Below are positions 55,476 to 61,291 of a DNA stretch of 64,000 nt, piece after piece. The stretch comes from Flavobacteriaceae bacterium (GTDB lineage Bacteria > Bacteroidota > Bacteroidia > Flavobacteriales > Flavobacteriaceae), in the NCBI GenBank assembly GCA_024638165.1, contig JAHEKV010000004.1, positions 224,703 through 288,702 on the forward strand, written 5' to 3'. A program made the translations under genes and the position numbers. The notes below the pieces were generated by a model. The model had not been told where the DNA came from. It saw only the letters and a program-made list of their open reading frames with translations, and searched no databases. Position 1 is the stretch's first letter. Each line of letters begins with the position of its first letter.

Positions 55476-56540
55476 ATGGCAGCGAACACTTTTGGAAACC
55501 ATTTTCGAGTAAGTACTTTTGGCGAATCCCATGGCCCGGCCTTAGGAGGAGTAATCGATGGTTGTCCGGCTGGCATTGAATTGAATCTTGAACTCATCCA
55601 AAAAGAGCTTGATCGAAGAAAGCCCGGGCAGTCTAAAATTACTACTCAACGCAAAGAACCTGATACTGTCGAGTTCTTATCGGGAATATTTGAAGGTAAA
55701 ACTACCGGTACTCCAATAGGTTTTGTCATTAAAAACACCAACCAAAAGTCAAAGGATTACTCCCACATCAAAGAAACTTATCGTCCTTCACATGCCGATT
55801 GGGTGTACGATCAGAAATACGGCTTTAGGGATTATACAGGCGGAGGAAGATCTTCGGCTAGAGAAACCGTTTCGAGAGTTGTGGCTGGAGCTATCGCTAA
55901 ACAGCTTGTTTCACCGATGAAAATCACTGCCTACGTAAGTCAGGTAGGCCAGATTAAATTAAATAAAGACCATAGCACCTTAGATTTTGAGGCTATCGAA
56001 AGTAATATTGTTCGATGCCCTGATACTCAAACCGCTGATCAAATGATTGATTTAATCTCTAGTATCAAGAAAAAGGGAGATACGATCGGTGGGGTGGTGA
56101 AATGTGTTATTCAAAATGTACCTGTTGGCTTGGGGGAGCCCGTCTTTCAGAAGCTTCATGCTGCTTTAGGTTCTGCAATGCTTTCGATCAATGCGGTGAA
56201 AGGATTTGCCTATGGAAGCGGATTTGATGCTCCAAGCATGCTCGGTAGCGAGCACAATGACTATTTCAATGAGGATGGCACTACTAAAACGAATTATAGC
56301 GGAGGAATTCAAGGCGGAATTTCAAACGGTATGGATATTTATTTTGAGGTTGCTTTCAAGCCCGTCGCAACCCTTTTACAGCCCTATGAAACACTCACAC
56401 GAGATGGATCATTAACCGACACCCATGGAAAGGGTAGACACGACCCATGCGTGGTGCCAAGAGCTGTACCCATTGTAGAAGCGATGGCTGCTCTAGTTAT
56501 GGCTGATTTTCTGCTACTTAACAAACTATCAAAAATTTAA
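55476..56540 (+). CDS. aroC: Chorismate synthase
   Basis: A 354-residue enzyme for the last shikimate-pathway step, converting EPSP to chorismate with reduced FMN. Family motifs are present: [19 protein letters not shown], the [19 protein letters not shown] segment (signature 2) and [20 protein letters not shown] near the C-terminus (signature 3). The length and motifs are normal, with no sign of damage. It is the first gene of a plus-strand run, followed three bases later by the dicarboxylate symporter gene. There is no obvious metabolic link with the rest of the run. Confidence 0.97.
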
Positions 56541-56543
56541 AAC

Positions 56544-57860
56544 ATGGCATTACACTGGAAAATTGTTCTTGGGCTAGTATTAGGTCTTTTATTTGGGTTT
56601 GGAATGACCTTTTTCGATTTTGGACCTGCCTTTGTTTCTGATTGGGTTCAGCCATTCGGAACCATATTTGTCCGTCTTCTGAAGCTTATCGCTATTCCCC
56701 TGATTCTTGCCTCATTGGTGAAAGGGATTGCTGATCTGAAAGACATTTCTAAGTTTAAGAACATGGGAATCAGAACCTTTGTAACCTACATGATTACTAC
56801 CGTGGTAGCGATACTGATTGGTCTTAGTTTGGTGAATATTCTTCAGCCAGGAATTGGAATTTCAGACGAAACCGTTGCCAAATTGACAACCACCTACGCA
56901 AATGACTCTGGAGTGACTTCGAAGATTGCCACTGCCTCAGCTCAAAAGGATGCAAGTCCTTTACAGTTTATTGTAGACATGGTCCCTGATAACATCTTCT
57001 ATGCGATGTCTAACAATGGATTAATGCTTCAAGTAATCTTTTTCTCCATCTTATTTGCTATTTCGTTACTACTTATCGGAGAAAAAGCGGCTCAACCTAT
57101 CAAATCCTTTTTTGATTCACTCAATGAGGTCGTGTTGAAAATGGTAGATCTGATCATGCTTTTTGCGCCTTACGCAGTTTTTGCTTTATTGGCAAGTGTT
57201 GTTGTTTCCTCTTCTGATCCCGAATTACTATTAGCTTTATTGAAGTATGCTGGAGTGGTAGTCTTAGGTCTGTTTTTAATGATCGTTTTCTATCTCATCG
57301 TTATAGCAACCGTTGCTAAGAAGAGCCCACTTTGGTTCATTAAAAATATGAGCCCTGCTCAATTATTGGCTTTCTCCACATCATCCAGTGCTGCTACGCT
57401 TCCAGTAACCATGGAGCGTGTAGAGGAGCATATTGGTGTTGATAAAGAAGTGGCGAGTTTTGTCTTACCCGTTGGTGCTACCATTAACATGGACGGAAGT
57501 AGTCTGTATCAAGCGATCGCTGCCGTTTTTATTGCACAAGCACTTAGCTTTGATTTAACACTAGGTGATCAATTAACGATTATTTTTACCGCGCTATTGG
57601 CATCGATTGGAGCTGCCGCCGTACCTGGAGCAGGAATGGTAATGTTAGTAATCGTTCTAGAATCTGTTGGTTTTCCTGCAGATAAATTAGCGATTGGTTT
57701 GGCACTTATTTTCGCCGTGGATCGTCCACTAGATATGTGTAGAACCGTTGTGAACGTTACGGGTGATGCTACCGTTTCTGTTCTGGTTGCAAAGGCATTA
57801 GGCAAACTTGGTAATCCTAAGGTTAAAAATTGGGATGACCACTTAGATGAAGTGAACTAA
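56544..57860 (+). CDS. Dicarboxylate/amino acid:cation symporter (DAACS family)
   Basis: A 438-residue membrane symporter of the GltP/DctA family, taking up glutamate, aspartate or C4-dicarboxylates with sodium or protons. Motifs: the serine-rich re-entrant loop AFSTSSSAATLPVTMERVEE, the unwound NMDGSSLYQAIAAVFIAQ, and the substrate site DRPLDMCRTVVNVTGDA. The DxxxR/C.T pattern near the end decides substrate; the residue after DMCRT favours an acidic amino acid or dicarboxylate, but I cannot separate the two. The gene sits three bases after aroC and nine bases before the ATP-grasp gene, so it may supply that pathway's acidic substrate (inference). Confidence 0.93.
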   Translation: MALHWKIVLGLVLGLLFGFGMTFFDFGPAFVSDWVQPFGTIFVRLLKLIAIPLILASLVKGIADLKDISKFKNMGIRTFVTYMITTVVAILIGLSLVNILQPGIGISDETVAKLTTTYANDSGVTSKIATASAQKDASPLQFIVDMVPDNIFYAMSNNGLMLQVIFFSILFAISLLLIGEKAAQPIKSFFDSLNEVVLKMVDLIMLFAPYAVFALLASVVVSSSDPELLLALLKYAGVVVLGLFLMIVFYLIVIATVAKKSPLWFIKNMSPAQLLAFSTSSSAATLPVTMERVEEHIGVDKEVASFVLPVGATINMDGSSLYQAIAAVFIAQALSFDLTLGDQLTIIFTALLASIGAAAVPGAGMVMLVIVLESVGFPADKLAIGLALIFAVDRPLDMCRTVVNVTGDATVSVLVAKALGKLGNPKVKNWDDHLDEVN

Positions 57861-57869
57861 TTAGGTTTT

Positions 57870-58910
57870 ATGCACATATGTTTTTTAATGTATCCATGGG
57901 AGAATATTGTTCCCGACAAGGATACGACACTGACGATGATTCACGAATGTGTATCTCGTGGTCACAAAGTAGCTCTTTGTACCCCAGGCAATCTTACTAT
58001 TAGAGATAGTATCACCTCTGCCTTTTGCAATGTGATTCAACCTAAAGAAAAGATTAGTAATAATATCAAAGTTTTTTATAAGAATTGTTCTTTTAAAAGC
58101 CAGATGTTACCATTAGCGGGCTTTGATACGATCTTCATGAGAGCGAATCCACCCATGGATCTTTTAATGCTCAATTTTTTAGATTCAGTTAAAAACGATG
58201 TCTTTATTTTGAATTCAATTGAAGGATTAAGAGAAGCTAATAATAAACTTTATACAGCAGCCTTCAGTCATATTCATAATGACATCATTCCTAATACGCA
58301 GGTTTCTAAGAATAAAGAATACTTAGTCAAGCAAATTGAGGAAAGTAATGCAGATAGAATGATCTTAAAACCTCTTAACGGTTACGGAGGTTCTGGTGTT
58401 ATTCTCATTGAAAAATCGGCGATGAGTAATATTAACTCATTACTTGATTTTTATCTTTCGAATTCTGATGGATCGAGTAATTATGTGATTCTTCAAGAAT
58501 ATGTTGAAGGCGCTGAAAACGGAGATATTAGAATAATAATGCTTAATGGTGAACCAGTAGGGGCAGTACGCAGAAGACCCGCTGAGAAGGATCACCGTTC
58601 CAATTTGTCAGCCGGAGGTACTTATGAAAAGCACTCGCTCACTAGACAAGAAAAATTAATCTGTAAAAGAATAGGTCCGAAACTTGTTAAGGATGGATTA
58701 TATTTTGTCGGAATAGATGTTATCGGAGGTAAACTCATCGAGGTAAATGTAATGTCACCAGGAGGTGTTGTTCCAGTAAATAAAATGAATAAGACCAAAA
58801 TTCAGAAGTTGGTGGTTGATTTTATTGAAGATAAGGTCAACGAGATGGTCTACAAGATTGATAGAAGATCTCGTTTAAGAAATCAGGTTCAACAGTCCTC
58901 TGATCGTTAA
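57870..58910 (+). CDS. ATP-grasp ligase similar to glutathione synthetase
   Basis: A 346-residue ATP-grasp enzyme of GshB type. It has an N-terminal substrate domain (IRANPP-like FMRANPPMDLL at about 89-99), the ATP-binding core RMILKPLNGYGGSGVILIEK (about 163-182), the DIRIIMLNGEPVGAVRRRP strand (219-237), the small loop NLSAGGTYE, and the metal ligands in GIDVIGGKLIEVNVMSPGG (281-299). ATP-grasp enzymes of this group join a carboxyl group to an amine. Free glutathione is rare in Bacteroidota and no gshA is here, so the product may be another peptide or a modified macromolecule. It is followed by two partner genes in tight succession. Confidence 0.9.
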   Translation: MHICFLMYPWENIVPDKDTTLTMIHECVSRGHKVALCTPGNLTIRDSITSAFCNVIQPKEKISNNIKVFYKNCSFKSQMLPLAGFDTIFMRANPPMDLLMLNFLDSVKNDVFILNSIEGLREANNKLYTAAFSHIHNDIIPNTQVSKNKEYLVKQIEESNADRMILKPLNGYGGSGVILIEKSAMSNINSLLDFYLSNSDGSSNYVILQEYVEGAENGDIRIIMLNGEPVGAVRRRPAEKDHRSNLSAGGTYEKHSLTRQEKLICKRIGPKLVKDGLYFVGIDVIGGKLIEVNVMSPGGVVPVNKMNKTKIQKLVVDFIEDKVNEMVYKIDRRSRLRNQVQQSSDR

Positions 58911-58913
58911 GTA

Positions 58914-59723
58914 ATGATACTTGAACGGTTGACGATCGAAGAAATCATTGATTCTCTAGAGAATCAAAGGTTTTTTAAGGCTGTGGATGATCAGTATGGC
59001 TTTTATATCAAGGTTGAAAGCTATACCGATCGAATAGCCACGGCAATACATGATGGTCACCAACTAAGACTAGATCTAAAGGATAACTGCTTGCTTACCG
59101 ATGATGAGAGGCTTTATGAAGAAGATCCTTTTACCGCCTTTTTCATTAAGGATCAACCAATAGTGATTAAAGGTCTAGATAGTCGTTTCGAATACGATTT
59201 GAACAGAGTATTTGAAGATGCTATCTATGAAACAGCTTGGGGTAAACAGGTTTGGAAAACGCCACTAACTGAAGAACAAACAAATCTTAGTAGAGAAAAA
59301 TATCAACGTTTTTATCGAGTAGTTGATGCCTTGTTAGGAAAACTATCCAGTATGCATGAAGCACCAATTATGGTCTATGATATTCATAGCTACAATTACC
59401 AGAGATGGGAAAGAAAAGTACCCGAATTAAACGTGGGTACATCCATGCTGGATCGTACGAAATGGAAGAAACAAATCGACAACTATCTATTAGCTTTGGA
59501 GTTCAGTTTTCCTACTTTTTGGGTTGCTGAGAATAATACTTTTTATGGTAAAGGTGGTTTTCTAGGGCATATTCAAAAAAACTTCGATAACGTTCTTGTT
59601 TTAGCTACAGAATTCAGCAAATATTACTGTGATGAGCTTACAGGGAGGTTTTATTGGGAGCAGCTTGAAGACACTAGAAGAAGATTAAACTCTTGTTTTA
59701 TAAAACATGATACGAGTTTCTAA
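58914..59723 (+). CDS. N-formylglutamate amidohydrolase-like protein
   Basis: A 269-residue member of the FGase family. Matches: ATAIHDGHQLRLDL (residues 42-55, zinc-site histidines 46 and 49), EEDPFTAFF (69-77), LDSRFEYDLNR (88-98) and VYDIHSYN (154-161). Family enzymes hydrolyse N-formylglutamate or similar N-acyl and amide bonds. No other histidine-degradation gene is in the window, so a role in that pathway is unlikely here. It starts three bases after the ATP-grasp gene, and its last 17 bases overlap the next gene, so translation is coupled. Probably a modifier or trimmer in the same pathway as its neighbours (inference). Confidence 0.85.
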   Translation: MILERLTIEEIIDSLENQRFFKAVDDQYGFYIKVESYTDRIATAIHDGHQLRLDLKDNCLLTDDERLYEEDPFTAFFIKDQPIVIKGLDSRFEYDLNRVFEDAIYETAWGKQVWKTPLTEEQTNLSREKYQRFYRVVDALLGKLSSMHEAPIMVYDIHSYNYQRWERKVPELNVGTSMLDRTKWKKQIDNYLLALEFSFPTFWVAENNTFYGKGGFLGHIQKNFDNVLVLATEFSKYYCDELTGRFYWEQLEDTRRRLNSCFIKHDTSF

Positions 59724-60870
59724 AGCTATAGAACAAATTGCTCCTCGGCTTTATCAGTGTGATCAAAAATTGCATCAACTCTTGTCAAAGCTAGAACTGT
59801 TGCAATATATTAACCCAATAAACAGTGAGAAAGAGCGGTTAAAGTTTTACAGGAGTCGCTATTACTACGAGCCAGATTTTAGGTATCCGAAATGTCAGCA
59901 TAATCTTTCAAAGATTCGAAAGCAGTTGAATAGCATAAAGGTTCACAAGATTGAGCATCCTATTGCGCAGCATTTATACGAACAGACCATTTGGTATTTT
60001 AATGGAATATTAGATTGTATTTCTACGGTAGGGCAGGGAAGACTATTTTTAAATTCAAGCTTGAAAATCTTTGGAACCTCGAGTCACTCCGAACTACAGT
60101 TCGCCCATCGAATTTTAGAGAAGACTTCATCTGATCAAGTGTCAGATCATCTCGTTTTTAGCACCAATGACGCCGTGGAGTACATGAAGGAGTACAACAA
60201 AAATTACGGATTTGATGTAGCTGTTGAAAGGGTAACTCATATCACCTCTAAGGCAATGGTAAGCAATCGATTACCTGCGGTTTTCTTGAGGAAGAATCAA
60301 AAGTTTTCAGAGAACGAGTTGATTGCGTTGGCGAATCACGAGATCGGAGTACATTTAGTCACAACCTTTAATGCTAAGAATCAACCTCTTAAGATCTATG
60401 AGTATGGAACTCCATTCAATGTAGAATCTCAGGAAGGTCTAGCTGTACTTTCAGAGTATTATAGTGGCAGTTTAACTCTTACTAGACTTAGAGAATTGGC
60501 GCTAAGAGTGATTCTCGCCGATCGAGTAGTGAAAGACTATTCTTTTTCCTCGAGTTTTGATTTACTCCTCACTACCTATGGATTAGATAGAGATACTGCC
60601 TTTAAAATGGTTACTAGACTATATAGGGGCGGAGGTTTTACCAAGGATCGACTCTACCTGAGTGGTTTATATCAATTATTAACCTACGGAAACGATTTAC
60701 CATTAGATTGGCTATTAGCGGGTAAAACTTCTCTGGCCTATGTTGATCTTATTCAAGAAATCGGCGATGATATTCCGATAATACAACCTCTTAAGTATCA
60801 ATCCATAAGCTTCAATCAGAATTTAGGATTGGGTACTGAGGTGGATCATATTCTAAAGGCTTGCATCTAG
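59707..60870 (+). CDS. QEGLA-motif (DUF1704/MATCAP-like) metallopeptidase
   Basis: A 387-residue protein of the DUF1704 family, named in databases after the QEGLA motif. The zinc-binding HExxxH is HEIGVH (residues 211-216) and the third ligand is in SQEGLAVLSEYYSG (glutamate 243). Established knowledge: the human member MATCAP uses a HExxxH site of this kind to remove the C-terminal tyrosine from tubulin. The bacterial substrates are unknown. A long N-terminal helical region (about 1-110) precedes the peptidase part. It ends the aroC-symporter-ligase-FGase run, and its stop is four bases from the convergent DUF393 gene. The functional pairing with the ATP-grasp ligase is inferred from order and overlap. 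Confidence 0.88.
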   Translation: MIRVSKAIEQIAPRLYQCDQKLHQLLSKLELLQYINPINSEKERLKFYRSRYYYEPDFRYPKCQHNLSKIRKQLNSIKVHKIEHPIAQHLYEQTIWYFNGILDCISTVGQGRLFLNSSLKIFGTSSHSELQFAHRILEKTSSDQVSDHLVFSTNDAVEYMKEYNKNYGFDVAVERVTHITSKAMVSNRLPAVFLRKNQKFSENELIALANHEIGVHLVTTFNAKNQPLKIYEYGTPFNVESQEGLAVLSEYYSGSLTLTRLRELALRVILADRVVKDYSFSSSFDLLLTTYGLDRDTAFKMVTRLYRGGGFTKDRLYLSGLYQLLTYGNDLPLDWLLAGKTSLAYVDLIQEIGDDIPIIQPLKYQSISFNQNLGLGTEVDHILKACI

Positions 60871-60874
60871 AATA

Positions 60875-61291
60875 CTAGAGTATAAGTCGATCCTCAAAAG
60901 AATCTTTATAGGTGATATTGCATTCTTTTATTTCCCTTCTTCGATTGGATGCAATAAGTCGATAAAATAGATTAATCAGCCATTCTGGAGCAATCCATAA
61001 AAGAACACCTAAGATAAGTGGTAAACCTTTCAGATTTTTACCTATCAATTTTAGGGCTTTGGCTTCTTGGTACCATAGAGCGCCAGGCCTAAAATAGAGA
61101 ATGGACTGCTGAAAAAGTTCAATTCCTAAACCCCGTTCTATCGCCCATGAAGCCGCTATAGTTGAATGTGCTGAAATCAAAATAAAAACACCTTCAGTAT
61201 CCCATTGGAGAATTTTCCTTGCCCATTTGGAACACATAGGGCAATGACTGTCAAAAAAGACATAATGACGATTCTCTTGAAATCTCACCAA
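60875..61291 (-). CDS. DUF393 (DCC) thiol-disulfide oxidoreductase-like protein
   Basis: A 138-residue protein of the DCC/DUF393 family: YVFFDSHCPMCSKWARKILQWD at the start carries the thioredoxin-like CxxC (Cys-Pro-Met-Cys). A later hydrophobic stretch (about 85-105, with LPLILGVLLWIAPEWLINLFYRL) suits the family's membrane-associated end. Redox activity is predicted but not shown for most members. No ATG exists near the start; TTG at 61289-61291 or GTG at 61286-61288 must serve. The TTG falls three bases after the mutS2 stop, so it is co-transcribed with mutS2. Confidence 0.85.
   Translation of the reverse strand: MVRFQENRHYVFFDSHCPMCSKWARKILQWDTEGVFILISAHSTIAASWAIERGLGIELFQQSILYFRPGALWYQEAKALKLIGKNLKGLPLILGVLLWIAPEWLINLFYRLIASNRRREIKECNITYKDSFEDRLIL

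Follow-up and report, generated by a model that had tools for sequence, protein, structure and literature searches.

Three adjacent genes in a 64,000-nucleotide stretch of DNA from a Flavobacteriaceae bacterium (GenBank assembly GCA_024638165.1, contig JAHEKV010000004.1, positions 224,703 to 288,702; the whole stretch is hereafter the window, and coordinates refer to it) encode a GshB-like ATP-grasp ligase (LIG), an amidohydrolase of the N-formylglutamate amidohydrolase (FGase) family (FGA) and a metallopeptidase of the MATCAP/DUF1704 family (QEG). Their status as one accessory evolutionary unit is firmly established, because the genes co-occur, FGA and QEG are found fused, the set is present or absent as a block, and it is conserved across phyla. 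The module is thus solid, while its chemistry is a proposal only: in our favored reading, to which we give a probability of roughly 0.4, the three enzymes would both synthesize and recycle a soluble N-blocked peptide of small size in a manner resembling the N-acetylaspartylglutamate (NAAG) cycle of the brain. The genes are as follows.

57870-58910, forward strand: LIG (LIG1 lineage), GshB-like ATP-grasp ligase of 346 residues, NCBIfam NF009110/PRK12458 subfamily
58914-59723, forward strand: FGA, FGase-family amidohydrolase of 269 residues (PF05013), predicted N-acyl-amino-acid deacylase
59707-60870, forward strand: QEG, MATCAP/DUF1704 (QEGLA) metallopeptidase of 387 residues (PF08014), predicted carboxypeptidase

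All three lie on the same strand, with gaps of +3 bases between LIG and FGA and -17 bases between FGA and QEG. These coordinates and spacings agree with a first-pass annotation of the stretch, as do the motifs that it had picked out (NGYGGSGV in LIG; HDGH...EEDP...DIHSYN in FGA; HEIGVH...QEGLA in QEG).

Co-occurrence of the three genes

The linkage of LIG, FGA and QEG is far above chance expectation. Among 395 Bacteroidota genomes sampled (that of the window included), 19 have QEG. LIG-type ligases scoring above 160 bits occupy 22 places, the next score being 97 bits, and 20 of these 22 adjoin QEG, covering 18 of the 19 QEG genomes. The sole QEG genome without a ligase (G186) carries a stand-alone QEG belonging to another clade. 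The two remaining high-scoring ligases (G194, G076; L056, L057) lie about 1.5 kb from a gene of the GCS2 family (gamma-glutamylcysteine-ligase type). They score 428.2 and 416.2 bits against NF003573 and above 400 against TIGR01380, thereby passing both NCBI cut-offs for glutathione synthase, with just 215 and 194 bits against NF009110 (cut-off 408). These two have the look of ordinary glutathione synthetases, and we use them as a control. An FGase-family gene is present in 15 of the 18 loci that combine LIG and QEG. In the other three (L036, L037, L039) an AspA/AstE-type deacylase gene adjoins the ligase, sharing its strand in two of them. Moreover, the 13 measured junctions with FGA and QEG unfused include 9 at which the two genes overlap, by 1-17 bases. 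A scan of genome contigs gave two loci only, both from one metagenome-assembled genome.

The claim of the first-pass annotation that the three genes form a system is accordingly borne out by co-occurrence, by fusion and by presence or absence as a block; its proposed survey of DUF1704 neighborhoods across Bacteroidota found the association to be far from rare. That the genes are chance neighbors with unrelated jobs is a very improbable reading: stand-alone QEG genes and orphan ligases do occur, but the phylogenetic profile, the fusions, the empty sites and the cross-phylum conservation all contradict it.

Gain and loss as one piece

The cassette is gained or lost as one piece. Within the window's genus, QEG is present in 7 of 11 genomes, and all seven share the order aroC, symporter, LIG, FGA, QEG (in L063 the contig ends within QEG). 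The symporter was sought in ten cassette-less genomes and nine sites were compared, G021 being left out (best match 35% identical). In all four QEG-less members of the genus and in G182, a DCC or MutS-type gene follows the symporter within 0.5 kb, with no cassette remnant at the site. No LIG-type ligase was found genome-wide in the four QEG-less members (best score 71 bits), nor when G182 was included (best score 73.6 bits, in the RimK-type range); three of the four genomes are drafts 82-91% complete or with some contamination, and the search did not extend to FGA elsewhere in any of the four. In G029, G107, G296 and G355 no cassette gene lies in the 16 kb examined, where the slot itself is incompletely conserved.

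Comparison with G400, a close relative without the cassette, places the edges of the block. The two sequences share 91.7% DNA identity over 5104 bases up to window position 57862, two bases past the symporter stop codon, and identity resumes at 61144, with 90.7% onward. The right edge falls inside the DCC1-like gene (61144-61291 in the comparison with L078), whose 3' part differs between close relatives; over the whole gene, the window and G400 share 59% amino-acid identity. Exchange of the cassette has probably proceeded via recombination between its flanks. The end of the DCC1-like gene itself appears swapped together with the cassette, as if by recombination.

The flanking genes of the window are these:

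55476-56540: upstream gene that we take to be aroC, named from its sequence without a family search
56544-57860: Na+:dicarboxylate symporter, upstream of LIG and 9 bases away from it
Downstream of QEG, opposite strand: DCC1-like gene and MutS-domain-V gene

The symporter and aroC, unlisted in the first-pass annotation, are shown to be flank by the empty-site comparison; we rejected both as members of the unit, as they remain where the cassette is absent. A rhodanese gene was likewise rejected as a fourth member: it lies between LIG1 and FGA in L028, L031 and L032, yet follows the symporter in the cassette-less L084 and L085. The rhodanese there is a two-domain protein, and the symporter-rhodanese pair is a separate association. 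In L031 (8112-8438) and also L032, a protein of 108-112 residues is encoded between the rhodanese and FGA, the L031 copy giving a sub-threshold TerB match.

Two lineages and a probable FGA-QEG complex

The unit exists in two arrangements. Type A, LIG1-FGA-QEG, is found in the window and seven further sample loci, and also in Photobacterium sp. GJ3 and DA100. Type B consists of a long QEG followed by LIG2, with FGA upstream in 5 of 8 sample loci; the order FGA-QEG(long)-LIG2 recurs on replicons of Sinorhizobium, Aminobacter and Shinella and in a record labeled Roseateles (organism unverified), and in the laboratory strain Sinorhizobium meliloti 1021 the type B genes (FGA, long QEG and LIG2) lie on pSymB. 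Two hybrid loci (L028, L029) carry both LIG1 and LIG2. In a tree of 26 of the available QEGs, type A forms one clade (support 90/92) and type B with the hybrids another (100/99), two solo QEGs standing apart on long branches. LIG1, LIG2 and GshB form three separate clades in the ligase tree; both trees were rooted at the midpoint only.

FGA and QEG are probably partners in a complex, a conclusion drawn from their fusion, from a putative pseudo-enzyme domain in type B QEG and from the overlap of their genes. Single-frame FGA-QEG fusions occur in a Bacteroidota locus (L027) and in Photobacterium sp. GJ3 (L051), where the two Pfam domains in a single open reading frame (ORF) confirm them, and also in Photobacterium DA100 (L066). 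Type B QEG is longer by 235 residues, which have no Pfam match in the two proteins tested. Compared with FGA profiles, this extra domain gave a match probability of 81% with type A FGA and 93% (E 3e-7) with types A and B together; a reversed control, run twice, and six column-shuffled controls all stayed below 0.4%. We read this N-terminal domain as a likely pseudo-FGase, since the active-site motifs of FGA are all missing from it in that alignment. An apparent QEG-LIG2 fusion in L038 was rejected, as QEG sits in a different frame within the 914-residue ORF.

In Vibrio vulnificus, a gene named "glutathione synthetase" (VV2_1204) comes after a COG3930 gene (VV2_1203; PMC3091676). Literature searches aimed at the triad gave no description of it among the papers listed, and an earlier description may exist.

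Relationships of the three enzymes

LIG is a GshB relative. Hidden Markov model searches matched it to GSH-S_N (1.3e-24) and GSH-S_ATP (1.3e-54), and it scores 443.6 bits against NF009110 (cut-off 408); it falls below the cut-offs of TIGR01380 (241.4 of 299.05) and of the RimK family TIGR00768 (91.4 of 143.4). The window protein alone matches GshB (1gsa) at 1.7e-39 and the best RimK-type chain at 5.5e-12; this closeness is taken from the window protein because the LIG family profile itself included two GshB sequences. In an alignment of 22 LIGs picked from about 32 genes, with three GshB sequences as reference, the Escherichia coli GshB columns D208, R210, R225, R233, N235, D273, E281 and N283 are retained in all 22. 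Among the 140 columns identical in the three GshB proteins, 36 are altered in every LIG (D9, K87, G234, T285 and T288 included) and 23 are retained in every one. The N-terminal part and the loop of GshB face the acceptor, and GshB binds small peptides beneath the closed loop. The far stronger match of LIG to GshB than to RimK points to a small molecule rather than a protein end as its acceptor.

A link to tubulin tyrosine ligase, which the first-pass annotation had raised, is not supported: the window LIG has no match to PF03133 at E up to 0.001, and one LIG2 (L028) reaches a sub-threshold 15.3 bits (cut-off 20.1). The idea of a system and the doubt about glutathione, discussed below, have fared better. 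NF009110 (window 57870-58910; L028, L048, L065) bears the NCBI label glutathione synthetase; linkage to QEG and the absence of gshA suggest that this label is misleading for the LIG subfamily.

FGA matches PF05013 (1.8e-10, 41.7 bits, above the curated cut-off of 28.9), and H46, G48, E69, E70, D71, S90, R91, D95, N97, R98, D156, H158, N207 and E233 are invariant in 19 of 19 aligned sequences. We rejected identity with the HutG N-formylglutamate deformylase (TIGR02017, cut-off 278.75): the window FGA has no NCBIfam match at E up to 0.001, and a relative in L049 scores only 26.5 bits against that model. Substrates of the FGase and AspA/AstE families are acidic amino acids bearing an N-acyl group, and the AspA/AstE-type gene in loci that lack FGA points to N-deacylation as the function of FGA.

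QEG is a predicted carboxypeptidase. It matches PF08014 at 1e-75 (255.5 bits, cut-off 27), and the zinc ligands H211, E212, H216 and E243 (HExxxH plus a downstream Glu) are invariant in 22 of 22 aligned sequences, two solo QEGs included. The window QEG alone matches human MATCAP (7z5g) at 7.5e-7; the family profile does so at 2.5e-20, with the human HEIGTH and EEGLA aligned to the QEG zinc motifs. The proposed connection to MATCAP therefore stands as regards homology, shown by the 7z5g match and the zinc site, while homology does not fix the substrate. Against TIGR02421, the QEGLA model, the window QEG falls short of the cut-off (270.6 of 338.65 bits), which its fused relatives pass (L027, 381.3; L051, 448). 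The name of that model, "flavohemoglobin expression-modulating," is widespread; the literature use found, in the parts available, was one gene in a table. A transcriptome study lists a QEGLA gene of Photobacterium damselae as 27.5-fold changed under low-salinity conditions (PMC10308900).

Proposed function and alternative readings

The formation or cleavage of amide bonds, mostly around acidic amino acids, is common to all three families. In the favored small-peptide cycle, LIG would catalyze the ATP-dependent ligation of an amino acid onto the carboxylate of a small amino acid or dipeptide whose amino group is blocked (N-acyl or gamma-glutamyl type, gamma-Glu-Cys excepted); QEG, as a MATCAP-type carboxypeptidase, would take the C-terminal residue off again; and FGA, or an AspA/AstE-type enzyme in its place, would remove the N-acyl group.

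Several observations weigh against this proposal. The neighborhood of the unit holds no conserved gene for an acyltransferase or a substrate, and the MATCAP-type enzymes known act on proteins. The window LIG passes the cut-off of the glutathione synthase equivalog NF003573 (290.3 of 272). QEG stands alone in L022 and L050 and hence has a role without LIG, and orphan LIG2-type genes occur on Ensifer plasmids with neither QEG nor FGA in the stretch examined (L064 6001-7041, L065 6001-7047, L087 4001-5047). In L037 the AspA/AstE gene is convergent, on the opposite strand to the ligase. The extra domain of type B QEG gave a probability of just 1.55% against type B FGA alone. Finally, the FGA profile found no solved structure in the PDB at E up to 1, and single-sequence AlphaFold2 models reached predicted local distance difference test (pLDDT) values of 34.5 for FGA and 40.1 for QEG. 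As to the surroundings of these solitary genes, the stand-alone QEG of L050 (6512-7792), on a Pseudoalteromonas replicon, lies between genes for glycine-betaine synthesis and the arginine-succinyl pathway, and a GNAT acetyltransferase considered as a partner of orphan LIG2 was rejected, being upstream in L065 and missing in L087.

Another explanation is that the pathway concerns glutathione or a close thiol, with LIG an ordinary glutathione synthetase and FGA and QEG scavenging hydrolases. We regard this as quite improbable, even granting the NF003573 score and the retained GshB catalytic residues. LIG misses the TIGR01380 cut-off, the two GshB genes without QEG score differently (high against NF003573 and TIGR01380, low against NF009110), and LIG1, LIG2 and GshB fall into three clades. 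Moreover, neither bacterial gshA family (PF04262, PF04107) is present in the window genome, in a search whose controls gave matches. PF04262 is found in 0 of 21 genomes searched, and PF04107 is absent from 13 of the 18 LIG+QEG genomes (the window's included) and present in 5, so that those 13 have neither family. The first-pass view that glutathione synthesis is a poor fit is thereby supported. The eukaryotic-type PF03074 likewise gave no match in the window genome, but the positive control was equally without a match.

Action on proteins, among the targets that the first-pass annotation had suggested, is a more serious contender. LIG might extend the C-terminus or a side chain of a protein by one residue or several, which QEG would then remove, with FGA trimming a blocked end, after the fashion of RimK/RimB. 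In its favor are the homology of QEG to MATCAP, zinc-site residues included, the removal of C-terminal Tyr, Glu and polyglutamate from tubulin by human TMCP1/2 (PMC10499314), and the precedent of RimK/RimB as a bacterial ligase/eraser pair on the ribosomal protein RpsF (PMC11957791); in the rlo operon, too, an ATP-grasp protein is coupled to a protease (PMC12239564). We nonetheless consider such tagging unlikely, because LIG resembles a small-molecule ligase, nearest GshB (loop columns R233 and N235 retained) rather than RimK or tubulin tyrosine ligase, and no conserved substrate gene was observed near the unit. The patchy distribution of the unit (19 of 395 genomes) is also unlike a system controlling a core protein, though compatible with one. 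A related and rather doubtful version would have a writer-eraser complex act on the C-termini of proteins or peptides, the MATCAP-relative eraser being joined by an FGase-type partner (active subunit plus pseudo-enzyme domain) for a second trimming or for regulation.

A different possibility, also an unlikely one in our estimation, is the tailoring of an accessory peptide, in which FGA and QEG would trim a precursor and LIG would extend it, with no recycling. The tight spacing, with FGA overlapping QEG at most unfused junctions, the FGA-QEG fusion, which suits channeling, and the accessory nature of the cassette are all in keeping with it, but no precursor gene or extra tailoring enzyme is conserved beside the unit, and clustering of neighbors across 18 loci yielded local context only. 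In L033 (13114-17369, where a HlyD-type partner was tested) and L036 (from 12525 on), AcrB-type efflux genes are found no more than about 2 kb from the cassette, and at 3834-8169 in L022 they lie near a solo QEG. Such efflux is the sole exporter type seen near the loci, in too few cases to count as conserved. Anti-phage defense was rejected, as PADLOC models gave no match to the three proteins at E up to 0.01, and so was viral carriage: scans of viral contigs returned 8 pattern matches for QEG and 160 for FGA, none of which passed tblastn.

Significance and comparison with known systems

A three-enzyme unit that spans phyla has thus been masked by the names "glutathione synthetase," "N-formylglutamate amidohydrolase" and "flavohemoglobin expression-modulating QEGLA motif protein." The small-peptide cycle, if true, would imply an undiscovered metabolite in flavobacteria, rhizobia and Photobacterium; action on proteins, if true, would make the unit a bacterial relative of the tubulin-trimming machinery. 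The question is directly testable, since close relatives differ at one chromosomal site in whether the cassette is there, and since S. meliloti 1021 has the type B set.

Each component has a known counterpart from which it departs. LIG is homologous to E. coli GshB (1gsa) across nearly its full length and retains the catalytic residues, but differs from it in the altered GshB-common columns and in a genome with no detected gshA. QEG shares with MATCAP/TMCP a homologous domain, the HExxxH plus downstream Glu zinc site and an aligned R...KDxxYLxG segment; unlike them it is bacterial, is operon-linked or fused to an FGase-type domain, and has QEGLA instead of EEGLA. With RimK/RimB the unit has in common an ATP-grasp ligase and an opposing peptidase in one operon, whereas RimB is an aspartic, retropepsin-like enzyme for which the available part of the source describes no FGase-type partner (PMC11957791), and LIG falls under the RimK-family cut-off.

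At the level of the whole pathway, the N-acetylglutaminylglutamine amide (NAGGN) osmoprotectant is a comparable case, in which an ATP-grasp/GNAT synthase, an amidotransferase and a peptidase encoded in one operon make an N-acyl dipeptide, but its enzyme families are unlike those of the cassette. In the brain NAAG cycle, NAAG peptidase removes the C-terminal residue. The synthetases of that cycle (RIMKLA/B) are ATP-grasp enzymes, and aspartoacylase deacetylates N-acetylaspartate (PMC3872778). The cassette would parallel this cycle in ATP-grasp ligation, C-terminal removal by a metallopeptidase and N-deacylation of FGase/AspA type, and would differ from it in a ligase that is GshB-like rather than RimK-like, a peptidase of MATCAP type, and genes gathered in one bacterial operon.

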